From Rhizophagus irregularis (Eukaryota; Glomeromycota; Glomeromycetes; Glomerales; Glomeraceae), in NCBI RefSeq assembly GCF_026210795.1, contig NC_089444.1, forward strand, positions 1,664,501 to 1,728,500: 64,000 bases of DNA, read 5' to 3'. The notes under the pieces are model-generated. The model was not told the origin of the DNA. It worked only from the letters and a program-made list of their open reading frames with translations, and ran no database searches. The translations under genes and the position numbers were made by a program. Below, piece by piece: positions 1,557 through 60,245 of the stretch. Position 1 is the first letter of the stretch. Every line of letters starts with the position of its first letter.

Positions 1557-1806
1557 ATATTCGCAATTTCGCACTATTATGCAAATTTCGGAATTTCAGA
1601 TTACGTAATTAATTTCGTAACATGTAATTAATTACATAATTATGTAATTAATTAAGATCTCGTAATTTCGGATTTTGGATTTGCCAATTGAATTTTGGAA
1701 ACAACTATACTGATAATATATAAAAAGAAAACGTAAGATTATAAACCCAACACCCTCTCTATATAAATTACTACAGCTACTCCCCCGAATTATATCTCAA
1801 ACCCGG

Positions 1807-2089
1807 CCCTATTTAATTACATACTATGGATAACAAACCTACTTCACAAAAGCCTCTGGGAACTTTTTAGTGTCATGCAATCCAGCCGATGGGGAACTTT
1901 TTAGTGTCGTGCAATCCCTGAAGGGACACCCACCTATCAAAAAGGAACAAAATTCAATTTCCCTATTTAACTACATACTATGGATAACAAACCTACTTCA
2001 CAAAAGCCTCTAGGAACTTTTTAGTGTCATGCAGTCCAGCCGATGGGGAACTTTTTAGTGTCGTGCAATCCCTGAAGGGACACCCACCT
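1807..2089. repeat. Two direct copies of a 129-bp repeat
   Basis: Positions 1807-1935 and 1961-2089 are nearly identical 129-bp copies separated by 25 bp. Each copy holds two internal versions of GGGAACTTTTTAGTGT followed by GCAATCC. The near-identity suggests a recent tandem duplication. Function unknown. Confidence 0.85.
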
Positions 2090-2890
2090 CATTGCGAATG
2101 ATCCCAAATGGAGGACATCCATCTCATTGCGAACGATCCTTCGGCCTAAGATCTATCTAGATAAGTCAATCCAATGATAGTCCAACATGTGACCACCATG
2201 ATCGGCATACTACAAAAACTGCGGTACCCAACCTGTCACCCTCCTTATCACCTGAGTGATCATTGATTTTTAAAATTGTAACACCAAGTCACCATGACGA
2301 TCAAATTTTCCAGTATCCCCCACCACCCAAAAAAAATAAGATTACACCGAAAAAAAGTGACCAAGAAAAACAAAAAGCAAAAAATAAAAATATAAACCTC
2401 AGGAAAACTCAAAGTGCAATGAGAAAAACCTGAGTAAAAAACATCAAACATACACCTCAACTCTATCTCCTTATTTTAGAAGACTAAATGAACTCTCCCA
2501 TTAACAACATTAACTAGCAAGAAATACGTTGGTCAGAAGCTCCTTTCAAGAAATAATGGTCTGGCCTGTGAACCACTTGGCCAGTTAGACTTTAAAGGCG
2601 TAGGAACCAAGACGCACTACTTTTCAACCTTTCAGAAAGCCCAGAGGAACGTTTGTATAGAACTGCCATCTTACATTATTATTGGTAACTCCAAGACTCA
2701 TGATAACAGTCCTAACTCAATATAAGCCGTAAGGAATTCGGGCGAAACTAAAGACCTTGGTAATAACTTTATATAACGTCGAAAAGTCCTTTTACTATTA
2801 CTCAAGGCAAAAAATCCTCATATTTTTCATCCATGTCTTTTTGGGAAAAAATGGGCACAACCTAACGGGAGAGAAAGTACGATGATCACT
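2090..2890. other. Non-coding, nothing recognised
   Basis: No exon with splice signals or domain was found. An open frame on the minus strand around 2260-2460 is a low-complexity F/C-rich product without a recognisable domain and was not accepted. Confidence 0.5.
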
Positions 2891-5469: not shown

Positions 5470-6467
5470 TCCCACTTTTTCTTACTGAGACTCAAGTCTG
5501 TCAGGCATTTTCCCGATATGGTACCGTAATCAAGTGCAAACTTACCCCTAGAAACCATTACTATAATGGACATATCCAGTTTTCTTCCACGGATGCAATT
5601 ACCCAATTTAATGATATTTGGGCGATTATTTGCCTTGGTAATTCTTTACGTGTCTGCCCGGCATCCTTTTCGAAATCCCAACGCGATAGCCGCAGAGAAC
5701 ATGTTGCTATTCTTGCCGGCATTCCGAAGAATATTAAAGAAGCTGATCTGTTAGAAATTGCTACTCTCAACCGTGCGCCCTTAATGTCCCCTTGTCTATC
5801 AGTTCTTACAAGCCTAAACCCTATGTATATTTGAATTTCTCTTCGTTTGAATCTCTTGAAGCTGCCAAAGAAATGACCGTGGCTTTCCGCGGCAAAGGTT
5901 TAACTTGGCACTCTCCTCTACGAAGCTCACACTTTACGTCACGTCTGCTGGACGTTCGGGTTGCTCTCCTTCGTATGTAGCCCTCGCCCCACACGAAAAG
6001 TGGACGATCGCCTTAACAAACTTTACTCTTGCTTCAATGCTGGCCCTAGACGTGGCCGTCAGGATTCACAACAATCACGTGACAATTCTAATTCCCGTTC
6101 AAGATCGCGTTCCAATTCTCGATCTCGCAATAATAATTCCTCTTCATCCCGCTCTAACAACAGCAATAATAAGTCTAACACTTCTCGTCCCAATACTCCT
6201 CGAAGTAGTAACCAGACTAACAATAATAATAATAATCCCAGGAACAATGGAAATTCTTCCAGACCTACTCAACCTCCGCACAGACCTCATCCTATTATTT
6301 CTACAACACCTACTTCTTCATTCGACAATCCCGCCCCTACGCTTCCTCAACATATTATTGATGAACTAAAGGCGCAGATTAAAGAGATCGCTAACACCCT
6401 CCATACTCTCGAGGAAACTGTCTCTTGGATGAATGATACTATCACGTCCATGAATATAGCTATCTGA
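5470..6467 (+). pseudogene. LINE-1 ORF1 relic: RNA-binding, RRM-like
   Basis: Several frames must be joined to read the product. The first part, around 5490-5760, reads like an RNA recognition motif (AFSRYGTVIKCKL, then YNGHIQF). A second RRM-like part lies around 5800-5910 (PYVYLNFSSFESLEAAKEM). Next comes an R/S/N-rich basic low-complexity region at about 6030-6270 and a short helical, coiled-coil-like end near 6350-6450 (IDELKAQIKEIANTLHTL). ORF1 proteins of this LINE group bind element RNA and assist target-primed reverse transcription. Frameshifts near 5760, 5790 and 5930 break it. The true start cannot be fixed. Confidence 0.7.
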
Positions 6468-6959
6468 GCAGAATCAACGATAGAACTTCGATAACCCCTG
6501 CTGACTCTGATTTGTATCCGCCTCGTGATGATCATGAAAATCAAAATTATTCTTATGATAATGGATGGGATGATGCTCCAACCCATGACACGAATTCTGG
6601 TTTCAATCTTCCTCCCCATACTTCCTCTTCTCTTATGGACGTTTCTCCTGATGCTTCCTTCTCAGCTTTGGATCCTAGCTCCATCCTATCAAAATGACAT
6701 GTCCCCTTACCTATTTCCCGACCTAATAATATCACCCCTGACGCTAACACTTCCCGTTTGCAATCAGAAATTTTTAATGTTACTACTACACAAAAGAATC
6801 TTTCTGCCCAACTTGGTTCGATTATGGAAAAAATTGACTCCTTCTCTCCTTCAAAACCCTCCCCTTCTAATGATTGAACACCAACTTGTATCGGGTGTCT
6901 CACAGGGATTTCACCCCCCTGATAGTGCGATACCTAATTTTAATAGTCCTAATAATCCC

Positions 6960-9900
6960 CCTTCTCCTCCTTTTTCTTTCCCTCTTATTAACTTTGGACA
7001 AATCAATGTTAATGGATTATGTTCCCCTGTACGACAACTGCATTTGTTAAATTATTTCCTTCATTCTTCTTTTGGCGTTTTATCTTTAAATGATACTCGT
7101 CTTACTTCTTCTAGTGCTAAATTTATTTATCAAAATGAACATTCCCAATATAATTTTAAATCTTATTGGGCTCCTTCCCCCCTCTAATTCGCGACCACAT
7201 GATGGTGTTGGTCTTTTACTTCGCCATCCTTTACACAAACATGTTCAGAAGATTGATCCCTGGAAAGGTCGTCTTTTAAAATTAGATCTTTTTTTTCATC
7301 AGACAAAAATTTCTATTATCTCTATTTATATTCCTCCTTATCATTCTATTCATTATAAAGAACGTGATGCTATTCTTGTTCAACTTAATTTATGGCTTGA
7401 TAAAGCCCGTTCCAATAACTATCACGTAGTTATCCTTGGTGATTTTAATGCAGATGAAATTTCACATTCACATCTTCCTCAACATCATTTGAAAATTTTA
7501 CGATCACTCTCTTCTCGATATTTTACGGATCACCAATCCCATATTTCCTCAATTTCAGGTCCTAGTCCTACCTTTTATCATCAAAATGGTTCTTCGAAGA
7601 CTTGATTATATCTGGTCATCCCCTGGATTTCCTGCTCCCGGTCTTTTCTCTCAAGTTGCAACTTGTCCTAAGCTGAATGATAATCAATTTACTGATCATC
7701 GTGTACTTATAACGGCCTTTGATTTTAGCTCATGTTTCGCTATTTTATCCAAAGCTCGATTAAAGCAGAAAAGCGAACAACGCACCATCTTTCTTTACAA
7801 AAATTTGAAAGATGACACTTGGGACAAATTTTCCAATGAAGTAAACTCACGTCTTGAGTTATACTTGACCACACACCACCCTTCAGTATCTTCACTTTCA
7901 GCTCTTTCATTGGACAAACTTTGGCACGCTCTTAAACGTTCTATTCTTGGTGGTGCCATTGATTCTCTACCATTCCAACATGTATCCAATACTCATCACC
8001 ATAAATATCTTCCTGAACTTACCATGCTTATTGCTGTCAACAAATTCTTGGATAGATTATTGTTTAAATTGACCACATCTAGGCCTGGTCGTCCTGCTCA
8101 AATTTTACAAATGATTAATTCTTTACCAACCCAATTAATCCTCCTTAAGTCTCTTTTAACAGATTATACAATACCTTCTTATAGTACAACACCGCTTCCT
8201 ACTTTTGTCAAATTTTTACGTTCACAAAAAGCTTTGGTCTCAGCTTATCTTTCCACACAATTTCATCAGCATCGTGTAGATTCCATTGAATATTATACTG
8301 CTCTTAGAGATGAACATTTCTCTACATCCCCGGGCTCTTTTATTTCTTCAGCCCTATCAGTGGAACATCGTTCTATTGTCCTTGATAGAGTTTTGGTTGT
8401 TATTGACTCCAAACCCACATTACTTACTGATCCTTCAGATATCAAACAAGCTGCTATTAAACACTTCCAATCGGTTGTCACTCCTCCTTTGGACCAGTAT
8501 TCTTCTACGGATTCATTTGCTCCACGATGGCAACGAGCTTATACTCCTCTTCCAGATATTGATTCGTCCTTATATAACTCGGGTAGGTCTCCTATTCTGG
8601 CCGATGAATGGAAAAACACTCTCAATTCTATGCCTAATAATAAAGCCTCTGGTCCTTCCAAGATCTCTTATGAGATGCTCAAACATTTAACTGGAGAAAC
8701 TTTCAATTTGTCCCTTGTATTAGCCAATGCTTGTCTCATTCATGGAGATATTCCTGCCGATTGGCGTGAAGCGCTTGTTTATCCCATTCCAAAGCCTCAT
8801 GAATTTGATGCCCAATTGAAGAATACACGACCTATCACTCTATTGGAAACAGTACGAAAATGTGTGGTTAAGGTCGTTACAACTCGACTATCAAAAATCC
8901 TAGCCAACAATCAAGTGCTCTAAGGTGGTAATTTTGCCGGATTACCAGGCGGCTCCACCGACATTCCTATTAAGATGCTTGATGCTATTATTCATCAACG
9001 ACGCTTTGATAAAAGCGATGACCAAGAACTATGGGTTGTTTCTCAGGACATTTCTAAGGCCTTTGACTCAATTGATTTGAACATGCTTAGACTGGCTTTA
9101 ATCCGTCTGCATATTCCGTCTTTATTGATCAAATTTATCATTAACCTTTTTACAAGGCGTAATAATAAAATTATTACACATCATGGTGATACTTCTGGAT
9201 ATAGAGTTAGAATTGGTATTGACCAAGGTGAAATCATCTCTCCACTATTATGGGTTATATACTTGGATCCATTACTTACCACACTTAATCGAGAAGCTTG
9301 TGATCCCTTTATTTTGAAATCTTCTGCATTATTGGATTATTCTCCAATTGAATATGAACAACATAATCTTCCTGTTTCACATATTACATTTATGGATGAC
9401 TCTACTTTGATTGCTTCATCTAAACAAGCGAATTGAAGATCGCCTTTCCATTACTGCTGAATTTTACACTTTAAATAATACTCAAGCAAATTCAGCAAAA
9501 TATATCCTTCTTTCTTCTGAACAATTTTCTCAAACTATTGTATTTGATCTATTCCCATCTTCTTTAAATACGATTCATACCCTTACTTTAAAGGCGTTAG
9601 CCTTATCTACATCTTTTCGGTTTTTAGGTGTTTGGTTTAACCTTTCGGCTTCTTCTCGTTTCGTTCATAACCAAACTGTTTCCATGGTCAAAGACATGGC
9701 CGCTCTACTCAGTCCTAAAAAACTTTTAGCCCAACATATAGCTTATCTTTATAACGTTGTCCTACTTACTTGAGGCTAGAATTTCGCCTACAAATCACAT
9801 TATTTGCAGAATCCACCATTAATCGCATGGTTTCTCCAATGCTTTCTCTTATTCGTCAGAAGGCTGGTTTGGCCTCAGTCACTCCTCTTTCCACACTCTT

Positions 9901-11874
9901 TACACTGTTGCCTTTCTCTATTCAACAAGCGTTTGGTCGATTTCTATCATCTCATGTGGCTTCATGGCAGAAAATTTTTTCTCACCCTTCATATAAGCTC
10001 TTTGCTAATTATATGATTACTTATCTCCAAGGTTTTTTGGACTGTGATGTCTGCCCTTCTACTATTGACCTGGAACCATGGTCCCACACCTTTTCTTTGC
10101 GAACACATTCTTTATTTAATTCTTTATTGTTCTCTTCTCGTTTAAATATCACGTGGTCTTTACTGTTCCGACCTCCGAGGAAAGATTTACGTTTGGCGAT
10201 TCCACTCCGGTCTATTTTACCAAAAGATTTATTTACTTCCATGAAAAATGTTCGGAAAAATTTCTGCACTCATTTTCTTGCTCAATTGATTACACCGTGT
10301 GGCTCTCGACTTCTCTCCATGGAAAGATTTACGCTTTTCTTAAAAACGAAGTATCGAACAAAAAATCTGTGCCTGCTTGGTTTAATTATTTGTTCAATCT
10401 TATTGTTATTCCTAATTCACCTTCTTTTTTTATTTTACAACAATTTAGAATTCCTAGTTCTCATACCGTAGCTTCTATTTCTTTTATAAATATTAGTCGA
10501 AATTATTGGTTTAACCCTCAATGGGCTATTTCTTTTAATCGCAATACTAACTCTTTCCTCGTTGGCCGTGTGATTACTACCTATCCTGCTCCACGTAATG
10601 AAGCTCTTATTTCACATTGGATTGCGTCATCGGTTGATGATTTACTTTCTGAATTTACTGCATGCCAAGGTTGTGCCTCTGCTATTCCGCGATCCTCTAC
10701 CTACTAAGACTTCTTTGATTAAACGACGTCCCTCCTGAAGGACGTTTCTCTTATGTTCCGTTATCAAGTTTGATCCGTTATCCTACGAAACCTCGTACTT
10801 ATATACATGCGGATACTCGTTCGGTTTCACTTTCTGCCTCGTTAGGCTATGCCAAATCTCTTTTACTATTTCATCTTTCCGGTTCGCTTACCTCCTACGA
10901 ATGAACTAGTGCTTAGGATTTCTGATATCCAACTTCCTTCTTCGGTGTTTACCCTTTATATTGATGGTTCCTTCCTTTCTCCTCCTAGTCATCCGGCATC
11001 CTCGATGGCTTATGCATGGACTGCTATAGATCCTGATGGATTTATTTTGGAATCCCATTATAATATCATTTCTTCCATTTTTCCTTCTGCTTTACGTTCA
11101 GAAGTTTTTGCTTTGTTGCATGGATTGGACTCCCTTCCTCGGAATTCAAAAATTACTGTCGCCACTGATTGTGCTCAATTACTTTCTTTATGGTCTTTAT
11201 ATGTGGATACTCCTTTTATTCCCAGAATGCTTAAAGAATCCAACCACCTTTTGTGGTCCTCCATACGCACTATTATGTTGCAAAAGAATCTGGATGTTAC
11301 CTTGATCAAGGTTCCTGCTCATGCTGACGACCCTTTGAATAATCATGTGAATGCATTAGCCAAAGCCGCTCATACTGACTCACATCTTTCTTCTTGTCCA
11401 CCATCGGAATTGATGGCTCCTTGCATTTTACAATTTAATTCCTTACCTGTGGATATGAATATCCGGCAATTTATTAGAGATATTTTTGACGCCAAAAGTC
11501 TTTTAACTCTTGCTGTATTACCAAGATTTAATTCCTATTCTTCAATTTCTGATATTGATTGGGCTTGCACTAAATTTTGTCTCAATAACAATAAGCATTT
11601 TTGTCTCATCGGAATGGCCGTTCCGAGCTTTTGTGGTTTCCGTATCAAGCTACTTTTAGATATGCTTCCAACGCTTACAACTCTTCAGAGGCGAAAGCCT
11701 CATCTTTATAATCCAAGTTGGCTTTGTCCTCAATGTAATTCCTTTCCTGAGACTTTAGACCACTTGTGGACTTGTCCTTATATTTTACCGGAATTTAGCC
11801 CTTTACAAACTTTTAAAACATTACTATTGGCTCTTCGGACTACTTATCTTGATAATTTCCTTTCCGCGTCATCT
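6960..11874 (+). pseudogene. LINE-1 ORF2 relic: endonuclease, reverse transcriptase, RNase H
   Basis: The endonuclease begins with FGQINVNGL near 6997, continues with VVILGDFNADE near 7430-7456 (metal-binding DFN) and ends with RLDYIW and TDHRVL near 7595-7720. The reverse transcriptase runs from about 8610 (NNKASGPSKISYEML) through KNTRPITLLET, QDISKAFDSID (motif A), GIDQGEIISPLL (motif B) and FMDD (motif C) near 9390. RNase H shows YIDGSF, SEVFALLHGL, VATDCAQLL and a late ADDPLNNHVNALA near 10960-11365. A finger CPQC-x8-H-x4-C follows near 11730-11780. Breaks include a TAA at 8921-8923 where LINE-2 has CAA, and frameshifts near 7190, 7600, 9430, 9770, 10450 and 10710. The 3' end of the ORF lies beyond the inserted transposon. 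Confidence 0.9.
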
Positions 11875-11959
11875 TTACACAGGTCGAAGGAGCACCATTG
11901 TCCAAACTTCAAAAAATGCAAATTCCCCCATTTTCCTGGAAAATGGTGGGAAATTGTGG

Positions 11960-12560
11960 AAAATGCTGCATTACGCTGAGCAATTTTTTGGAATAGCATT
12001 GTTACAACATTGTCCGATTTAGCAAATTTTATAAATTTTATGAAAATTTGGGAAAATGCTACATTATATCTCAAATGTAACGTTTCGTAACATTGTTATA
12101 ACATTGTCAATTAAATCAAATTTTGCTTTTTTTTTGTCAAATGTTCCAATTTTCTTGCAAATGGTGCATTTTTATGAAAATTCCACATTTTGCCTCAAAT
12201 GTAATAACATTTCATAAAATTGTTATAACATTGTCAATCAAAATTAAATTTTGCTTTTTTTTTGTCAAATGTTCCAATTTTCTTGCAAATGGTGCATTTT
12301 TATGAAAATGCCACATTTTATCTCCAATGTGATATCATTGTAACAACATTTCATAAAATTGTTATAACATTGTCAATTAAAATCAAATTTTGTCAAATAT
12401 TCCGATTTCCTAGCAAATGGTGCATTTTTTTATGAAAATTCTATATTTTTTGTCAAATGTTGCATATTTTCAGCAAATTTTATGTTTTTTTGGTCAAATG
12501 TTTCACTTTTGTCAGAATGTTAAAATGTTACATTTTTTTTTTGAAAATGCTCAATAATAT
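11960..12560. repeat. Left subterminal tandem repeats, ~120 bp
   Basis: Three to four tandem, imperfect units share ATTGTTATAACATTGTCAAT, TTTTGTCAAATGTTCC, TTGCAAATGGTGCATTTT and ATGAAAAT. Unit starts are near 12065, 12215 and 12355. Subterminal repeats of this kind are typical of CACTA elements, where they bind transposase; that role is inferred here. Confidence 0.7.
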
Positions 12561-13080
12561 GGCATTACACTGGAAAATGTAGCATTTCACCAAATTACAC
12601 TAAAAAGCATCACAATTATCACATTTTTTGGAAAATTTCACATTAAATTAAATTATACTAAAAAATGTAGCACTATACTAAATTATGCGGCATTGCACTA
12701 AAAAATACCACAATTACACTAGACAATGTAGCATTACACTAAAAAGTACCACAATTATTATATTTTTTAGAAAATTTCGCGTTATACTGGAAAATGTAAC
12801 ATTATGCTAGAAAATGTGGAATTGCACTAAAAAATGCGGAATTGCACTAAAAAACGTGGAATTGCGCTAAAAAACACAAAAAAAATACTACAATTACACT
12901 GGATAACGTAGCATTACACTTAATTACATTAAAATTGTTAATTTTTATTTTTATTTATTTGTAAATTACGAACATTATTAAATTTATAATATTTATATTC
13001 TAAATGAATTATTTAACATTAAATCACATTGTTAATATAAACAATGTATCAACACGATGTGTTGTGATGTTTAATTTAGT
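12561..13080. repeat. Short irregular repeats around CATTACACTAAAAAA
   Basis: Many short variants of GCATTACACTAAAAA, GAAAATGTAGCATT and GGAATTGCACTAAAAAA occur between about 12565 and 12925, followed by plain AT-rich sequence to 13080. No coding potential. Confidence 0.6.
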
Positions 13081-13084
13081 ACTA

Positions 13085-13440
13085 AACCTTACTACTGAAG
13101 ACTCCCTCTTTTTATCACTATAAACAGGCGGAGGGAGCAGCAATGGCTCTCCCCCTATAGGTACTTTATGGCCTCTACCTGTTTACAGAGGAGGGGCTTT
13201 TCGTAAAGTATTAGTTAATAGATATATATATATGTATATATAAGCATATATATACATCTATTTAAAATTATTAAAATAAAAAAAAAAATTCCGGGGCGGG
13301 GGAAAGCCCCTATTTATATAAAATTATATATCACGTGCATCACGTGATATTACTTAATAATTACCGCAGCTGAAGCTGCGGTATAACGAAAAAAAAAAAT
13401 TAAGCTTTTTTAGCAAAAGCTTAATTTTTTTTTTCTCACG
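13085..13440. repeat. Cluster of at least five hairpin-forming palindromes
   Basis: Successive inverted repeats can be read: TACTTTA...TAAAGTA enclosing CCTCT...AGAGG (about 13161-13211), GGGGC...GCCCC (about 13292-13309), TATCACGTG...CACGTGATA (about 13328-13350), TACCGCAGC...GCTGCGGTA (about 13362-13383) and AATTAAGCTTTT...AAAAGCTTAATT (about 13398-13427). The segment is more GC-rich than its surroundings. No known RNA family was recognised. Confidence 0.7.
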
Positions 13441-13700
13441 GCCTTTACCTCTTCTTTCTTTCGCCCTTCCCCTTCCCTCTTTCTTTCACCTTCCCCTTTC
13501 CTCTTTCTCTCACCTTACCCTTCCCTCTTTCTTTCCTTCCCCTTCCCCTCTTTTTTCTCTCGCCTTCCCCTTCCCTCTTTCTCTCACCTTCCTCTTCCCT
13601 CTTCTCTCCTCTTCTCCCCTTCCTCTTCCTCCGCCCTTCCCCTTCCCTTTTTCCTCCCACTCCTTCCCCATTCCCTTTCCCCTTCCCAGAACCGTCTTTC
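13441..13700. repeat. Pyrimidine-rich CCTTCC/CTCTTT tract
   Basis: About 260 bp of almost pure C/T on the plus strand, built of CCCTTCC and CTCTTTCTCTC variants. An open frame in the opposite strand encodes only K/R/E/G repeats and is treated as an artefact of composition. The tract ends just before an ATG at 13710 that abuts the first GTAAG of the intron-like array. Confidence 0.8.
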
Positions 13701-13709
13701 AGAAAAACA

Positions 13710-16054
13710 ATGGTAAGTTTCAAAGCGAAACGCTTCGAAACTTTTTTAAATTTAAATTTTTTTTTTAATTCTTTGTTGTAAGGAAACGTTTCTAACGTTT
13801 CCTTTCTTTCTTTTTTGTAGGATTTTCGATGTTTTGACTACTGAAATTATGGTAAGTTTCGAAGCGTTTCGCTTCGAAACTTTAAAAATAAATTTTTTTT
13901 TTTTTGCTTTTATAAGGATCGTTTTTAACGATCCTTTATTTTTTTTTTTGGTCTTTCGGTATTTTTGACTTAGGAAACGAGGAAACGAAAATGGTAAGTT
14001 TCGAAGCGTTCGCTTCGAAACTTTTTTTAAAAAAAATTTTTTTTAATTCTTTTTTGTAAGGAAACGTTTCTAACGTTTCCTATTTTTCTTTTGTGTAGGT
14101 CTTCAACTTCGGAAAGTGAAATGGTAAGTTTCGTGTTCGAAACTTACTTTTTTTTTAATTTCTTTTAGGAAACGTTTCTAACGTTTCCTTTCTTCTTTTG
14201 TAGGAACGCCGGACGAAATTACGACCCGGACTTTGGAAGAAAGGTAATATTTTCTTTTTTTGTTAAATTTTTTTTTTATTAAAAGAAACGTTAACTAACG
14301 TTTCTTTCCTTCTTTTTGTAGGTTCCGGACGTTTGGATGAAACGAGCCGGTGAGTTTTGCAACGAATCGTTGCGAAACTTAATTTATTGATTTTTTTTAT
14401 TAAAAGAAACGTTAACTAACGTTTCTTTCTTTTTTTGTAGGTTCCGGACGTTTGAAACTCGAAACGAACTGGTAAGTTTCGCAACAATTGTTGCGAAACT
14501 TAATTTTAATTATGTTTTTTTTAAAGAAACGATACTAACGTACGTTTCTTTTACTTTTTGTAGGTTCCGGACATTTGGATAATAGAAATCGAAACGAACC
14601 GGTGAGTTTCGCAATATTGTATTGCTGAAACTTATTTTTTAATTATTTTTTTTAAAGAAACGATACTAAACGTTTCTTTCTTTTAATTTTTGTAGATTCG
14701 GACGTTTGGATAATGAACTTGAAACGAACGGTAAGTTTCGCAACGTTGTGTTGCGAAACTTAATTTTACTCTTTTTTTTTTTAAAGAAACGTTTATATTA
14801 ACGTTTCTTTTTTACTTTTGTAGGTTCAGCGTTAGAATGAATAAACGACCGGTAAGTTTCGCAATGTTACATTAGCGAAACTTAATTTTGTTTTTTTATT
14901 AAAACGTTAATTAACGTTTCTTTTTACTTTTGTAGGTTCCGGATGTTAGAATGAATGAAACGAGGTAAGTTTCGCAATGTTACATTGCGAAACTTAATTT
15001 TTGTTTTTTTATTAAAAGAAACGTTAACTAACGTTTCTTTTTTACTTTTTGTAGGTTCCGGATGTTAGAATGAATGAAACGACCGGTAAGTTTCGCAATG
15101 TTACATTGCGAAACTTAATTTTTGTTTTTTTATTAAAAGAAACGTTAACTAACGTTCTTTTTTACTTTTGTAGGTTCGGATGTTAGAATGAATGAATGGT
15201 AAGACGAAACTTAATTTTTTGAAACGAGTAAGTTTCGTTAACGTTACATTGCGAAACTTAATGTTCTTTTTTTTAAAAGAAACATTATCTAACATTTTTT
15301 TTTACTTTTGTAGGTTCCGGATGTTAGAATGAATGAAACGATTGTCAAGTTTCGCAACATTGTGTTGCGAAACTTAATTTTTACTCTTTTTTTTTTAAAA
15401 GAAACGTTTATATTAACGTTTCTTTTTTACCTTTTGTAGGTTCCGGATGTTAGAATGAATGAAACGACTGGTAAGTTTCGCAATGTTACATTGCGAAACT
15501 TAATTTTTGTTCTTTTTTTAAAAGAAACATTACCTAACGTTTTTTTTACTTTTGTAGGTTCCGGATGTTAGAATGAATGAAACGACTGGTAAGTTTCGCA
15601 ACATTGTGTTGCGAAACTTAATTTTTACTCTTTTTTTTTAAAAGAAACGTTTATATTAACGTTTCTTTTTTACTTTTGTAGGTTCCGGATGTTAGAATGA
15701 ATGAACGACCGGTAAGTTTCGCAATGTTACATTGCGAAACTTAATTTTTGTTTTTTTTTATTAAAAGAAACGTTAACTAACGTTTCTTTTTTACTTTTTG
15801 TAGGTTCCGAATGTTAGAATGAATGAAACGACCGGTAAGTTTCGCAACATTGTGTTACGAAACTTAATTTTTATTCTTTTTTTTAAAAGAAATATTACCT
15901 AACGTTTCTTTTTTACTTTTTGTAGGTTCTGGACGTTTGGATAATAGAAATCAAAACGAACCGGTGAGTTTCGCAACATTGGTTGTGAAACTTAATTTTT
16001 ATTAATTTTTTTTTAAGAAACGTTAACTAACGTTTCTTTACTTTCTTTTTGTAG
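13710..16054 (+). repeat. Tandem array of ~19 intron-like units with twin hairpins
   Basis: The unit, mostly 115-125 bp, reads GTAAGTTTCG, a hairpin that includes this 5' splice-like site, a T-rich spacer, a second hairpin (AGAAACGTTA/TAACGTTTCT type) holding CTAAC or TTAAC at its loop, then a pyrimidine tract ending TTTTTGTAG. A 'mini-exon' such as GTTCCGGATGTTAGAATGAA... follows (31 bases in the commonest form). Intron-like stretches run 13713-13820, 13852-13973, 13994-14098, 14124-14203, 14244-14321, 14350-14440, 14472-14563, 14602-14695, 14731-14823, 14852-14935, 14965-15054, 15086-15173, 15199-15313, about 15344-15439, 15471-15557, 15589-15681, 15712-15803, 15835-15925 and 15964-16054. 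Stem sequences change together between units. Mini-exons are 20-40 nt, mostly not multiples of three, and joining them gives early stops, so a protein product is unlikely. Confidence 0.85.
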
Positions 16055-16260
16055 GTTTTTTTTTCGTTTTCAGCGAACACACTTTGGCATCGGAGATACG
16101 CTGAATGAATTAGATGTGCGGATTACCCATGGATCATTGGATATCTGATGAATATAGATTAATATAGATTCGTATGTTAAATAATAATTGTGCATTTGTT
16201 AATAAATAATATTGTAATAAATTATGTAAAATTATTAAACCAGTGTTTTAAATTGTCAGT
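16055..16260. other. Tail of the array: non-repeat sequence
   Basis: Sequence after the last TAG (16052-16054) no longer follows the mini-exon consensus; it contains GCGAACACACTTTGGCATCG and then AT-rich sequence. It could be a terminal exon of an array transcript, but no long frame or polyadenylation signal could be assigned. Confidence 0.4.
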
Positions 16261-17130
16261 CGGTATTTGCACTAAATTGTTTAAAATTATTACTAAATTT
16301 CACTCAATTGTCCGAAATTATTGCAAAATTTCACTCAATTGTCCGAAATTATTGCAAAATTTCACTAAATTGTCTCCGAAAATGTTGCGTTTATACTGTT
16401 TACACTCAATTGTACAAAATCAGTAAAACATTTTTCACTCAATTGTCCAAAATTATCCTAAATTTCACTAAATTATCAAAAGTTTAGCTAACATTTACCG
16501 AAAAAATGCAAAATTCACCACAATTTTCCACAATTTGTATTACGTTTGCACAACATTGCTGAAAAATTCACCTAAATTTTCAACAATTTATATAACATTA
16601 CTAAAAATACACTACAATTTACCACAATTTGCATTACGTTTGCATAAAATTACTAAAAATTTGACTAAATTCACTACAATTTGCATTACGTTTACATAAA
16701 ATTACTAAAAATTTGACTAAATTCACTACAATTTGCATTACGTTTACATAAAATTACTAAAAATTTGCCTAAAATTTACACAATTTACAATACGTTTACA
16801 TAAAATTACTAAAAATTTGACTAAATTCACCACAATTTGCATTACGTTTACATAAAATTACTAAAAATTTGACTAAATTCACTACAATTTGCATTACGTT
16901 TACATAAAATTACTAAAAATTTGCCTAAAATTTACACAATTTACAATACGTTTACATAAAATTACTAAAAATTTGACTAAATTCACTACAATTTGCATTA
17001 CGTTTACATAAAATTACTAAAAATTTGACTAAATTCACATTACGTTTACATAAAATTACTAAAAATTTGACTAAATTCACTACAATTTACATAAAATTAC
17101 TAAAAATTTACCTAAAATTTCCCACAATTA
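16261..17130. repeat. Right subterminal repeats, including a 52-bp tandem array
   Basis: Between about 16620 and 17110 a 52-bp unit (GCATTACGTTTACATAAAAT then TACTAAAAATTTGACTAAAT and TCACTACAATTT) is repeated roughly nine times with deletions; successive starts are 16631 and 16683. Upstream (16261-16450) a related short repeat, CACTCAATTGTCCGAAATTA, recurs. The arrangement mirrors the repeat-rich left end of the transposon. Confidence 0.8.
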
Positions 17131-17335
17131 ATGATAATTTACTGAAAAATTTCTCAACATTTGAATTAGGAATTCTGTAGGAATTCCGCCATTTTGACAA
17201 AATTTGCCAAATTGTAAGTCCTCCATTATCCCAAAATTGTAACACAATTTACCCCAATTTACCAGGATAATTCTCAATTTGCCAGAAAAATTCCAGGCAA
17301 ATTTTGCGACAATGACATCTGTTCGACCTGTGTTA

Positions 17336-17818
17336 ATCCCTTTACCGGACTCTTTTGCTGCTGAATTTATAGCTTTCTTAATTGTTGGGATTATGGACCC
17401 TTCCGTTATTCCTGCTGCACTCATGAAGAGGCTTATACCGATATCTTTGACAGAATTTCTTGGAATTTATTTTTCTTCACCTACCATATGGTCTATCTTA
17501 GATACACCTTTGCACGACTTTCATTTTGACCTTTATGTTCAAATCTGGTTGTGCCGATCCATTTTCTTTCATCATTGGAAATTAGCTCAAGGCATTACAA
17601 AAAAAATGAAATCGTCAGCTCTTGGGCCTTCTTCTATTCTTCGACCTTCCTCTAACATTCCTCTTGACTCTTCGACACCTTCTTTGGCGACAGCTTCCTT
17701 GGATTCCTGGGTTTCTTGGGTTTCCTCTTCTATAATCCGTGGGGGATCTTGGATTTCGCATTTGGATTTTTGGCGCCGCTTAACAGTTCAGCCTCTACTT
17801 AGGATTTCTTTTTGGTAA
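17336..17818 (+). pseudogene. LINE-1 ORF2, C-terminal remainder
   Basis: The frame reading IPLPDSFAAEFIAFL through YVQIWLCRSIFFHHW to LLRISFW and TAA (17816-17818) is collinear with the end of the LINE-2 ORF (about 21790-22276). It is therefore the missing end of the LINE-1 ORF2 cut by the transposon at 11875. Confidence 0.9.
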
Positions 17819-18102
17819 CGGATTGGATCTTAGGACATGCTGGATAGTTGATCTCACACTGGTTTCCTTTGGGTAAAGATGGGGTATGCGTTTCTGTAAT
17901 AGTTTAGTTTTTCTTTACTTAATTTTATTTTGTTTAGATTTCTTTACTTGTATGAATCGTGAAGCTAGTTCTTTTTATTTTTTATGTTTATTTTCTATAT
18001 TTGATATTTGTAATATTGTTCGATCTGTTTATTGTACTTTTTTTTTAAATTTAATAATAAAAGATAAAGTCATAAGACTGTTTGCTCATAATCACCAAAT
18101 AT

Positions 18103-21100
18103 TACAACACCGCTTCCTGCTTTTGTCAAATTTTTGCGTTCACAAAAAGCCATAGGTTTCTGCTTATACTTTCCACATAATATCATCAACATCGCGTGGA
18201 TTCTATTGAATATTATACTGCCCTAGAGACGAACATTTCTCTACGTCGCCGGGTTCTTTTATTTCTTCAGCCCTGTCAGTGGAACATCGCTCTATCGTTC
18301 TTGATAGAGTTTTGGTTGTAATTGACTCCAAACCCACATTACTTACTGATCCTTTAGATATTAAACAAGCTGCTATTAAACACTTCCAATCGGTTGTTAC
18401 TCCTCCATTGGTTCAACATTCTTCTATTGATGTATTTCCTCCACGCTGGCAAAGAGCATATACTCCTATTTCTGACATTGACCCATCTTTATACACCTCG
18501 GTCATGTCTCCTATTCTGGAAGAAGAATGGAAGAACACTATCCAGTTTATGCCTAATAACAAAGCCTCTGGTCCTTCTAAGATCTCTTATGAGATGCTCA
18601 AACATTTAACTGGAGAAGCTTTCAATTTGTCCCTTGTTCTAGCTAATGCCTGCCTTACTCACGGTGATATCCCCTGCTGATTGGCGTGAAGCGCTTGTTT
18701 ATCCCATTCCGAAGCCTCATGAATTTGACGCTCATTGAAGAATACACGACCTATCACTGTATTAGAAACTGTACGAAAATGTGTGGTTAAGGTCGTTACA
18801 ACTCGTCTTTCAAAAATCCTTGCTGATAATCATGTGCTCCAAGATGGTAATTTTGCTGGATTACCTGGTGGTTCTACTGATATTTCTATCAAGATGCTTG
18901 ATTCTATTATTCATCAACGACGCTTTGACAAATCTGACGACCAAGAAGTATGGATTGTTTCTCAAGACATTTCAAAGGCCTTTCGATTCGATAGATTTAA
19001 ACATGCTTAAATTGGCTTTAAATTCCATCTACATATCCCGCCTTTGTTAATTAAATTTATTATTAATCTTTTTTTACAAGACGCAATAATAAAATTATTA
19101 CTCATCATGGTGATACTTCTGGATGTGAGTTAGAATTGGTATTGACCAGGGTGAAATTATTTCTCCATTATTATGGGTGATCTATCTTGATCCTTTGCTT
19201 ACAACACTTAATCGAGAAGCTTGTGATCCTTTTATTTTAAAATCCTCTGCATTATTGGATTATTCTCCGATTGAATATGAACAACATAATTTTCCTGTTT
19301 CACATATTACGTTTATGGATGATTCTACTTTGATTGCTTCATCTAAACGAGGAATTGAAGATCGCCTTTTCATTACTGCTGAATTTTATACTTTAAATAA
19401 TACTCAAGCTAATTCAGCTAAATATATCCTTCTCTCTTCTGAACAATTTTCTCAAACTATAGTGTTTGATCTTTTCCCATCTCCTTTAATCCCAATTTGT
19501 TCCCTTACTTTAAAGGCATTAGCTTTATCCAAGTCTTTCCGTTTTTTAGGAGTTTGGTTTTGCCTTTCGGCCTCTTTCTCGTTTTGTTCATGATCAATGC
19601 ACTTCTATGGTCAAAGACATGGCTGCTCTACTTAGCCCTAAAAAACTTTTGGCACAACATATGGCTTATCTTTATAATATTGTCCTTCTTCCAAGGCTAG
19701 AATTTCGCCTACAAACCACGTTATTTGCTGAATCCACCATTAAATGTATGGTTTCCCCAATGCTTTCTCTCATTCGACAGAAGGCTAGTTTTGCTTCAAC
19801 GACTCCTCTTTCCGCGCTTTTTACATTGTTGCCATTTTCAATCCAGCAAGCATTTGGTCGATTTTTATCATCTCATGTGGCTTCATGGCAAAGAATTTTT
19901 TCTCACCCTTTATATAAAACTTTTGCCAATTATATAATTACTTATCTCCAAGCGCTTCCTAGATTGTGATGCCTGTCCTTCTACTATTGATTTAGAACTA
20001 CGGTCCCACACCTTTTCTCTTCATACACATTCTTTATTTAATTCTTTATTGTTCTCTTCTCGATTAAATATCACGTGGTTTTTATTGTTCCGACCTCTGA
20101 GAAAGGATCTACGTCCGGCGATTCCACTTCGGTCTATTTTACCTAAAGAATTATTTACTTCCATGAAAAAGGTTCGCAATAACTTTGGTACTCGTTTCCT
20201 CACCTAATTGGTTACTCCGTGTGGCTCCAGACTTCTTTCTTGGAAAGATTTGCGCTTTTTTAAACGAGTTTTGAACAAAGGATCTGTGCCTGCTTAGTTT
20301 ACTTATTTATTTAATTTTGTTGTTGCTTTTAACTCTTCTTCCTTTTTTGTTTTACCACAATTTAAAATACCTAATTCCCATACTGTAGCTTCTATACTTT
20401 CTATAGATATTAGTCGAAATTATTTGTTTAATCCCCAATTAGCTATTTCTTTTAATCGCAATACTAACTCTTTTCTTGTTGGCCGTGTGATCATTACCTA
20501 TCCTGCTCCACGCAATGAAGCTCTTATTTCACATTGGATTGCGTCATTTGTTGATGACTTATTATCTGAATTTACTGCATGTCAAGGTTGTGCCTCTGCT
20601 ATTCCGCGATCCTCTACCTCTAAGACATTGATTAAACGATGTCCCTCTGAAAAATGCTTCTCTTATGTGCCTTTATCAAATCTTATTCGTTACCTACGAA
20701 GCCTCGTACCTATATACATGCGGACACTCGTTCGGTCTTACTTTCCGCTTCGTTAGGCTATGCCAAATCTCTATTATTATTTCACCTTTTTGCTCCAGTT
20801 CGATCACTTCCTATGAATAATCAAGTGTCTAGGATGTCCGATATCCAACTTCCTTTCTCGGTGTCTACACTATATATCGATGGCTCTTTCCTTCCTATTT
20901 CAAGTCATTCGTTACATTCGATGGCGTATGCATGGACTGCTATCGATTCTGATGGATTTATTCTTGAATCTCACTATAATATTATTTCTTCTCTTTTTTC
21001 TTCTGCCTTGCGTTCTGAAATCTTTGCTTTATTACATGGACTGGACTCCCTCCCTCGGAATTCCAAGATTACTGTCGCTACTGATTGTGCACAATTAATT

Positions 21101-22538
21101 TCCTTATGGTTTACGTATGTGGATGTTCCCTTTATTCCTAGAATGCTTAAAGAATCCAACTACCTTTTATGGTCTTTGGCACGGGCTATTACTTCACAAA
21201 AGAATCTGGAAGTTACTTTTATCAAGGTTCCTGCTCACGCTGACGATTCTTTGAATAATCATGTAGATGCATTAGCTAAAGCTGCTCATATTGACTCGCA
21301 TCTTCCTTCTCGTCCGTTATCGGAATTGCTGGCTCCTTGCATTTTACAATTTAATTCTTTACCTGTAGATATGAATATCCAGAAATTTATTAGAGATATC
21401 TTTGATGCTAAGAGCCTTTTAACTCTTGCTGTATTACCAAGATTTAATTCTATTTTTTCTACTTCTGAAATCGATTGGGCTTGTACCAAATTTTGTCTTA
21501 ATAATAATAAGCAATTTGTCTCCCATCGGAATGGCCGTTCCAAGTTTTGTGCTTTCCGTATCAAGATTTTACTAGATATGCTTCCGACACTCACAACTCT
21601 TCAGAAACAAAAGCCTCATATCTACGACCCGAGTTGGCCCTGTCCTCAATGCAACTTCTCTCCTGAGACTTTAAACCACTTATGGACTTGTCCGTATATT
21701 TTACCTGAATTTAGTCCTTTTAATACCTTCAAAACACTTCTGCTGGAACTCAGAACTGTGTGTCTTGAGAAATTTCTTTCTGCGACTCCTTTGATACCTT
21801 TACCGGACTCTTTCGTTGCGGAATTTACGGCTCTTGATTGTTGGGAATGTGATTTTCCTTCGTCTTCTTGCCTGCGACTTGCACGTGGACTTATACCGAT
21901 ATCCCTTACAGGATTTCTTGGACTTTACTTTTCATCATCCGTTATATGGTCTATTTTAGATACACCTTTACATGACTTTCACTTTGATCTTTATGTTCAA
22001 ATCTGGTTGTGCCGTTCTGTCTTCTTTCATCATTGGGAATCAGCTCAAGGCATCACTAATAAAATGAAATCGTCCGTTATTGGACCTTCTCCTATTTCTT
22101 ACTCTTCCTCTCAAATTTCTCCTGATTTTTTGACACCTTCCCTGGCGACAGTTTCCTTGGATTCCTGGGTTTCTTGGGTTTCCTCTTATATAATCCGTGG
22201 GAGATCTTGGATTTCGCACTTGGATTTTTGGCGCCGTTTAACAGTTCAGCCTCTACTTAGGATTTCTTTTTGGTAACGAATTGGATCTTAAGACATGCTG
22301 GATAGTTGACTTACACTGGCCTTCGGGTAAAGTTGGGGTATGCGTTTCTGTAATAGTTTAGTTTTTCTTTACTTAATTTTATTTTGTTTAGATTTCTTTA
22401 CTTGTATGAATCGTGAAGCTAGTTTTTTATTTTTTATGTTTATTTTCTATATTTGTTATTTGTAATATTGTTCGATTTGATTATTATACTTTTCGTTTAA
22501 AAATTAAATAAAAAATAAAGTCAAAAGACTGTTTACTC
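18103..22538 (+). mobile_element. LINE-2: 5'-truncated copy of the same LINE family
   Basis: Starts abruptly at TACAACACCGCTTCC, which corresponds to LINE-1 position about 8190, directly after the junction sequence at 18088-18102. It continues through reverse transcriptase, RNase H and C-terminus to a 3' UTR nearly identical to that of LINE-1. 5' truncation is typical of target-primed reverse transcription. It lies in the same orientation immediately behind LINE-1. Confidence 0.9.
18110..22276 (+). pseudogene. LINE-2 ORF2 relic: reverse transcriptase, RNase H, C-terminal domain
   Basis: Reverse transcriptase fragments include NNKASGPSKISYEML near 18555, NTRPITVLET near 18740, QDISKAF near 18965 and FMDD near 19315-19326. 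The C-terminal half (20654-22276) is one intact frame with RNase H residues (YIDGSF, SEIFALLHGL, VATDCAQLI, AHADDSLNNHVDALA), the CPQC-x8-H-x4-C finger and the C-terminal region missing from the left half of LINE-1. Breaks include frameshifts near 18670, 18985 and 19125 and a TAG at 20295-20297 where LINE-1 has TGG (10378-10380). The element cannot encode a working ORF2 protein. Confidence 0.9.
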
Positions 22539-59539: not shown

Positions 59540-59579
59540 TATCTAAATATAAATATAAGTAATTTAATTATTTTTATAT

Positions 59580-60245
59580 ATAATTACTATAATGCAATTT
59601 TAACTTGACCTCTAGTGATTTAATTTTAATAACATTTTTTTAACTTATAGCTCTCATTTAGCTCTACAAATCTAGATTTACAAAACAAAAAAAAGTTTGT
59701 TTAAATTGAATTAATAGAAACCAAGATAATTGTATTTACATTATAATAATTATTATAATGCAATTATCTTGACTTCTAGTGATCCAATTTTAACAAACTT
59801 TTTTTTGTTTATAGCTCTCATTCAATTCTACAAATATAGCTTTACAAAACAAAAAAAAGTTTGTTCAAATTGAATCACTAGAAGCCAAGATAATTGTATT
59901 TACATTATAATAATTATTATAATGCAATTATCTTGACTTCTAGTGATCCAATTTTAATAAACTTTTTTTTGTTTTATAGCTCTCATTCAATTCTACAAAT
60001 ATAGCTTTATAAACCAAAAGAAGTTTGTTCAAATTGAATCACTAGAAGCCAAGATAATTGTATTTATAATTTATATTATAATAATAATTATTATAATGCA
60101 ATTATTTTAACTTCTAGTGATCTAATTTTAATAAACTTTTTTTTAATTTATAGCACTCATTTAGCTTTAAAGTCTAGCTTTACAAAACAAAAAAAAAGTT
60201 TGTTCAAATTGAATTACTAGAAGCCAAAATAATTATATAATACTA
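59580..60245. repeat. Tandem array of four palindromic ~165-bp units
   Basis: Units begin near 59586, 59751, 59915 and 60090. Each is an inverted repeat: the left arm CAATTATCTTGACTTCTAGTG, continuing to AACAAACTTTTTTTTGTTT, pairs with the right arm AAACAAAAAAAAGTTTGTT and CACTAGAAG..AAGATAATTG, around a short centre (CATTCAATTCTACAAATATA). Copies 2 and 3 are nearly identical and copies 1 and 4 are diverged. The linker is ATTATAATAATTATTATAAT. Confidence 0.85.

Follow-up and report, generated by a model that had tools for sequence, protein, structure and literature searches.

We found that an array of 19 tandem intron-like units on the forward strand of Rhizophagus irregularis DNA forms the interior of a 5,455-bp element, 11878-17332, which is inserted in a LINE and which we regard with high confidence as a non-autonomous CACTA-type (CMC-EnSpm) DNA transposon. 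Positions are those of the window, that is, the whole analyzed stretch of 64,000 nucleotides (C16:1664501-1728500), and the genome searched comprised 146.7 Mb in 32 contigs. The carrier belongs to the known CACTA type, and the intron-array cargo appears to be the new part. Comparisons of the units support the view that the array is transcribed as a unit without coding function, from which the ordinary spliceosome could remove the introns, and we consider the introns probably spliceable. The whole explanation, which joins a CACTA-type carrier, a spliceable non-coding array and a proposed gain to the element, is tentative and falls slightly short of evenly balanced. A sequence-only reading that had described the array missed both that it is transposon cargo and that several array families exist.

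Units of the array and their coding potential

Splitting of the sequence at 13713-16054 (+) gave 19 introns, each 78-108 nt long, with 18 mini-exons (25-54 nt) between them (Table 1), in agreement with the about 19 tandem intron-like units described earlier. The 5' half of a typical unit contains GTAAGTTTCG, a short apical stem and CGAAACTTA, followed by a T-rich spacer. The 3' half contains AAAGAAACGTT-AACT-AACGTTTCTTT, with the branch-point motif beginning within the loop, and then a T-tract and TAG, after which a mini-exon such as GTTCCGGATGTTAGAATGAATGAAACGACCG follows. The donor was GTAAGT in 14/19 units and GTGAGT in 3/19, and TAG was located at the expected acceptor position in 18/19, the exception being unit 2, with TTTTTGG in its place; the claim that splice-like signals survive in nearly all units was thus upheld. 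A strict scan of the 64 kb for the branch-point hairpin with acceptor found 11 matches within the array and elsewhere one on the plus and one on the minus strand, while shuffles of the array (n=200) gave a mean of 0.025 and a maximum of 1. The poly(A)-signal-like end was observed in 18 of 36 sequences including the window, a set in which L011 was on the wrong strand and some pieces stop short.

Table 1 Features of the element and its intron-like array (window positions).
Feature	Position	Strand	Basis
Left target-site duplication TTA	11875..11877	.	flank comparison
Left terminal inverted repeat CACAGGTCGAA	11878..11888	+	end comparison
Left subterminal region, diverged short repeats, common to transposase-bearing L018	11889..13343	+	
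Palindromes directly 5' of array; L018 homology stops near 13407	13344..13434	+	
CT-rich tract, putative promoter/leader	13448..13690	+	promoter role inferred
Intron unit 1	13713..13820	+	unit split, folding
Intron unit 2, expected TAG lost (TTGG)	13852..13951	+	unit split, comparison of copies
Intron unit 3	13994..14098	+	unit split, folding
Intron unit 4	14124..14203	+	unit split, folding
Intron unit 5, GTAATA donor, without hairpin 1	14244..14321	+	unit split
Intron unit 6	14350..14440	+	unit split, folding
Intron unit 7	14472..14563	+	unit split
Intron unit 8	14602..14695	+	unit split
Intron unit 9	14731..14823	+	unit split, folding
Intron unit 10	14852..14935	+	unit split
Intron unit 11	14965..15054	+	unit split, folding
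Intron unit 12	15086..15173	+	unit split
Intron unit 13	15228..15313	+	unit split
Intron unit 14, GTCAAGT donor	15344..15439	+	unit split
Intron unit 15	15471..15557	+	unit split
Intron unit 16	15589..15681	+	unit split, folding
Intron unit 17	15712..15803	+	unit split
Intron unit 18	15835..15925	+	unit split
Intron unit 19	15964..16054	+	unit split, folding
18 mini-exons between introns	13821..15963	+	unit split
Final exon, with poly(A)-signal-like AATAAATAAT..AATAAATTATG	16055..16230	+	role inferred
Right subterminal region, ~20-50 bp tandem repeats	16231..17321	+	
Right terminal inverted repeat	17322..17332	-	
Right target-site duplication TTA	17333..17335	.	

The mini-exons did not appear to be protein-coding, as had also been noted before. 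Only 4/18 in the window and 56/265 in the family were divisible by three (the 265 came from intact neighbouring units, with 8 put aside on length), and 168 of 186 distinct family exons had at least one frame with a stop. The open frame across exons that was used as the test for a protein-coding multi-exon gene was absent, and window RNA spliced in silico carried stops in all three frames. Exon 1 ends with ATG, and a short open frame was seen by eye in the last exon of some copies, as might be left by a protein gene, now decayed, that once had numerous small exons of repeated type; given the exon lengths and stops, however, we hold such an origin to be most improbable. The outline of the units also resembles that of spliced-leader (SL) RNAs, which contain a mini-exon, a GT donor in a stem, a U-rich spacer and a second hairpin, so that mini-exon and donor hairpin could be read together as a small trans-splicing RNA in an SL-like gene array. 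SL RNAs, however, are not known to have a branch point or acceptor, whereas the acceptor is in place in all window units but one, and the mini-exons are variable (186 distinct among 265), which leaves this reading barely credible.

The carrier element

The element starts with CACAGGTCGAA and ends with its complement, and TTA is located on both sides. The terminal inverted repeats (TIRs) begin with CAC, as in CACTA / CMC-EnSpm elements, with the exception of one copy, L006, which starts with TACAGG. Two LINE copies are present in the window; their mutual alignment runs as far as 11876, and the first LINE continues from 17333. These LINE-like elements, at 5860-11979 and 17243-22276, have reverse-transcriptase-like frames by eye, and it is the first that the transposon splits. 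Matching 3-bp flanks were observed in 10 of 11 copies, namely the window, 7/8 others, L005 and L019, and were lacking in L014. The 24-mer of the left end had 77 genome matches at up to three mismatches, and the reversed pattern had 0. Subterminal tandem repeats, with a putative role in transposase binding, were present in both flanks of the array.

The left end is shared with a relative, L018, which is 88-97% identical over the first 1.37 kb and over 160 bp further on. After its left end, L018 carries a tnp2-type transposase in broken frames, and the array thus occupies the place where this relative has its transposase. One of three L018 transposase pieces matched Transposase_21 (PF02992) in Pfam with E 2.3e-8, above the cut-off, and with E 7.5e-13 in another search; the other two pieces and two open reading frames of L017 gave no Pfam match above the cut-off. 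The right end of L018 was not found within the piece examined, and no relative was confirmed when viral contigs were scanned with that transposase piece. The shared left end, the TIRs, the target-site duplication (TSD) and the L018 transposase together give the element the structure of a non-autonomous CACTA (CMC-EnSpm) transposon. According to PMC8647823, CMC-EnSpm is one of the best-represented TE families expressed in R. irregularis.

Several other features were observed in the course of these comparisons. L017 contains two tandem left ends, at positions 124 and 1148 (reverse-complement coordinates), like an element inserted into the end of another. L015 contains, at 1588-2731 (reverse-complement coordinates, minus), a frame near the left end that is tyrosine-recombinase-like (Crypton-like) by eye, and the window has a tandem repeat at 59560-60238 with 4.1 copies of a 164-bp unit. 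A search of 11870-17340 against Rfam gave three matches, all at 13344-13436 and below the gathering score, which were taken as chance.

Array families across the genome

Searches of the genome returned 335 matches for the array, 264 for the hairpin-1 pattern and 778 for the directional pattern of branch-point hairpin and acceptor, versus 10 when the latter was read backwards. From 150 of the 335 array matches, 39 array loci were grouped by hand. Among the matches listed, 36 of these 39 loci had a same-strand left end upstream within 15 kb, at a distance of 2.4-4 kb in 32 of the 36, and the locus at C4:3843785 had an additional opposite-strand left end close by. Among 20 further array loci, drawn from 100 of the 778 matches, only four were located behind the left end of the window element, which indicates that arrays occur outside this transposon too.

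The arrays fall into several families. In family B (166 genome matches), the exon is close to ATTTCGGCCCGGAACTCGGAAATGGAGACCG and in several units measures 31 nt, and a donor hairpin was found in 0/17 introns. Family D, in L015 and L044, has an exon of the form GGAAATCGGCTCCAATTTGGATACC.. and the donor GTAAAG. Further arrays were observed in L041-L043 and L040/L052, and in those of L045, L046, L049 and L050 a hairpin straddles the border between exon and intron, its loop containing the donor (AATTTCGAAG before and GTAAAACTTCGAAATT after the border; likewise GAACTTCGAAG and GTAATAACACTTCGAAGTTC). L018 also carries a second array family at ~7600-8950 (reverse-complement coordinates), on the strand opposite to its transposase, and a third array from 9300. 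The families that have the GTAAGTTTCG..CGAAACTTA stem in common are probably old relatives, and families B and D look unrelated in sequence when judged by eye. Outside family A (11 pieces), a perfect stem of at least 7 bp over the donor-like motif was found in 29/76 introns with a branch-point hairpin, against 16/760 in the shuffle control; the same count in the window was 9/14 against 0/140. A reading of the arrays as plain satellite was set low; ordered one-strand intron signals were found in several families.

The arrays look as if they lengthen and shorten through tandem duplication of the exon-intron unit, not through one-by-one insertion of introners. Of the earlier suggestion of tandem introner-like amplification, the amplification was retained.

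Host genes touching arrays

Four isolated-looking hairpin-1 matches, among 100 of the 264, were read. Two of them, L061 and L064, are arrays. In L063 (C11:64600-65900), an array abuts a coiled-coil gene that has been cut and the paralogs of which (L068-L070) continue past the junction; the junction is located near position 340-352, near the apex of hairpin 1, and the coiled-coil gene has 42 genome matches. L062/L065 (C10, about 1579539-1580300, minus) is a host Got1/Sft2-like gene holding an array piece. In this piece, an array mini-exon of 38 nt separates two array introns, one partial (80 nt) and the other complete (90 nt), the latter with both hairpins.

In this gene, a 123-aa frame over five host exons is open only if the 38-nt mini-exon stays and both introns are taken out, with exon borders placed by eye and one upstream acceptor picked to preserve the frame; the test of the mini-exon itself depends on the two exons that flank it. 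The match to Got1/Sft2 (PF04178) had E 4.5e-7 with the mini-exon, above the cut-off, and E 6.5e-4 without it, below the cut-off. By our own estimate, such a frame could arise by chance in about 1 in 6 cases. Of the indirect signs that array introns can be spliced, this gene is the strongest. Two other Got1-family matches exist.

That a host gene holds two array introns, one complete and one partial, on either side of an array mini-exon would also fit arrays that seed introner-like introns into host genes. The other three isolated-looking matches, however, were two arrays and one array with a cut gene, and because the L062/L065 piece contains an exon, it resembles inserted DNA and not a copied intron. 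From the four matches read, we consider a role of the arrays as an introner source very unlikely.

Conservation of splice sites

To compare splice sites across the family, 391 unit matches were obtained from 34 pieces; 387 covering at least 46 columns were kept, and 355 with at most 14 gaps were placed in a tree. When read by pattern, with all pieces in the correct orientation, the donor was readable in 378/387 units and the acceptor AG was present in 375/387, six units having TAAG, with the AG displaced by one base, and six having no AG. When aligned columns were counted with gaps as misses, GT was present in 356/387, AG in 353/387 and both in 325/387. The branch-point motif YTAAC was found in 312/382 units, a set that includes 11 wrong-strand matches of L011.

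On the tree of 355 units, donor losses were 7 terminal and 0 internal and acceptor changes were 6 terminal and 2 internal, giving a splice-site total of 13 terminal and 2 internal. Changes in spacer and loops were 141 terminal and 200 internal, and those in loops and pyrimidine tract were 78 terminal and 109 internal; the splice sites differed from both (Fisher p 7e-4 and p 8e-4, respectively). This contrast is support and not proof, because the tree was made from the columns scored, and it was obtained with a loose spacer alignment and with donors and acceptors called by pattern. The results support that donors and acceptors were mostly kept in the lineages that went on spreading, as far as the unit tree can tell.

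The main rival to a spliceable array is a neutral passenger, in which a captured exon-intron piece expanded in a minisatellite-like manner and the signals and hairpins persist by descent and recent copying. We regard it as a real possibility. The pieces contain 7 to 19 units (some pieces cut the array), the stems decay by C-to-T and G-to-A on both arms, and certain acceptor changes are common to several copies. For example, the AG of unit 2 is missing in the window and L009 and kept in L005, L020, L021 and L026, and one orthologous unit has TAAG in both L008 and L009 (not within the tree). Nor were spliced retrocopies of families A, B and D found, their junction patterns, at up to three mismatches, having 0 genome matches each. 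Against a neutral passenger stand the retention of the same signals by several array families that differ in their exons, and splice-site losses that are mainly terminal where spacer and loop changes are mainly internal.

Hairpin structure and stem decay

Both hairpins formed in 8/8 folded introns of the 19, with z of -4.0 to -8.4, and 0/200 shuffles folded as well as the real introns; two hairpins per unit, as first described, are present in nearly all units, hairpin 1 being absent from unit 5. In the alignment of the 19 introns, 94.1% of the stem cells pair, and sliding the partner by 1-3 columns brought pairing down to 40-52%. Changes on both sides were observed in 7/25 pairs (23 cells), consistent with the earlier statement that stems change on both arms. 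Neither the covariation score of the 19 rows nor the count of cells changed on both sides was matched in any of 500 shuffles, and the number of pairs with both-side changes was matched in 4/500. Covariation in the 19 aligned units thus exceeded shuffles in the score, but not in extra pair types, the observed number of which was reached by 432/500 shuffles.

We compared G-U with A-C mismatches as a test for RNA-level selection on the stems. Family-wide, with the donor +3 pair of hairpin 1 excluded, G-U and A-C numbered 186 and 176 over both hairpins, with no consistent G-U excess. In hairpin 1 they were 18 to 12 outside CpG-type pairs and 89 to 70 at them, and in hairpin 2 they were 41 to 29 and 38 to 65, respectively. 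A set of 126 distinct arm pairs that covered several families gave 21 versus 37, with 5 to 6 outside a CpG-like context and 16 to 31 within it. As G-U is about equal to A-C in the family, covariation alone is no proof of RNA-level selection. The earlier proposal of selection on RNA structure or splicing instead of a protein was therefore only partly sustained: constraint on splice sites fits the data, and covariation alone does not demonstrate RNA-level selection.

Terminal changes in family A stems were mainly C-to-T and G-to-A, much of it at CpG, a pattern expected of CpG decay in dead copies; the tree behind these terminal changes contained none of the 11 L011 matches (of 387) that were read on the wrong strand. 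This decay resembles the effect of CpG methylation. The four stem arms had 119 internal versus 234 terminal changes on the unit tree, and CpG decay alone might explain that internal changes are fewer. The double changes of the stems are older and may come from active lineages or from palindrome correction at the DNA level, both of which fit the data.

Near-perfect Watson-Crick stems with an inconsistent G-U bias, as well as the L063 array-host junction near the apex of hairpin 1, would also fit palindromes that act as DNA, as cruciforms or as dyad sites for the transposase or a host factor, with the intron likeness secondary. We consider this improbable, however, because the second palindrome lies over a branch-point-like motif, downstream of which come a T-tract and YAG, all on one strand and in the order that gave 778 matches versus 10 backwards.

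Proposed mechanism

If the array is spliceable, the CT-rich tract before it could serve as promoter or leader and the poly(A)-signal-like sequence after it as the end of a transcript, from which the spliceosome would remove the introns to leave a chain of mini-exons, most often of 31 or 38 nt. The element would retain a promoter, together with an intron-rich RNA that does no harm, because its transcribed, spliced DNA might stay accessible to a transposase supplied in trans. The array RNA could pass as ordinary spliced RNA and be marked less by RNA-based silencing; in Cryptococcus, poorly spliced transposon RNA triggers silencing. The donor and branch-point hairpins may slow or order splicing, or hold neighbouring introns apart. 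A benefit of the array to the element through open chromatin and escape from silencing is the gain that we favour, yet in our judgment it is rather unlikely. A non-autonomous element needs its termini and an outside transposase, and its own RNA is unnecessary for movement, which counts against the main explanation.

A wider conjecture, which we hold to be doubtful, is that these are transposon-borne non-coding intron-array genes of several families, selected for being spliced and not for a product, in which hairpin-gated serial splicing would act as a silencing shield or a spliceosome drain and mini-exons would occasionally enter host proteins.

If the introns are spliced, the cargo of this transposon would be mostly introns with splice sites kept without coding, and the way in which fungi tell self from transposon RNA by splicing would become testable in long-read and small-RNA data of R. 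irregularis. The arrays also offer hundreds of natural structured introns for studying the effects of donor and branch-point hairpins, and the Got1/Sft2-like gene may illustrate the entry of a new exon plus introns into a host gene. That the splicing signals seem to have been kept makes one ask what a DNA parasite gains from an intron-dominated RNA.

Comparison with known systems

The structure had been called unlike any described element. This stood in so far as our literature search, with subscription journals mostly outside its coverage, found no title or abstract that describes introns arrayed in tandem, whether in transposons or among Glomeromycotina; but the carrier is a CACTA-type transposon, and many loci share the architecture. 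Like CACTA / CMC-EnSpm elements, the element has a TIR starting with CAC, a 3-bp TSD, subterminal repeats and, by the same left end in a relative, a tnp2-type transposase. Unlike them, its interior consists of tandem hairpin-bearing introns and mini-exons, and we know of no described CACTA / CMC-EnSpm member with intron-array cargo. The units share head-to-tail arrangement and changing copy number with minisatellite and satellite DNA, and differ in their ordered one-strand intron signals and in forming several families.

The signals of U2 spliceosomal introns, that is, a GT donor, a branch-point motif and an AG acceptor, were present in the family units. SP7-like effector genes of R. irregularis are likewise a repeat-containing, intron-bearing family; as described in PMC11333574, their protein products contain hydrophilic repeats that are imperfect, and the position ahead of the first repeat is occupied by a conserved intron, whereas the array keeps no frame. 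Fungal introner-like elements and symmetrical stwintrons, as described in PMC8469720, are repeated introns with inverted repeats and a predicted stable structure that occur singly in genes by seamless insertion. The stable structure is matched in all eight folded introns. As to single introns in many coding genes, the window units are tandem and lie with their mini-exons in a transposon, and 1/4 isolated-looking matches lay in a host gene. Unlike introners, the array introns are arranged in tandem with non-coding mini-exons between them, are carried within a DNA transposon and have two local hairpins at fixed sites.
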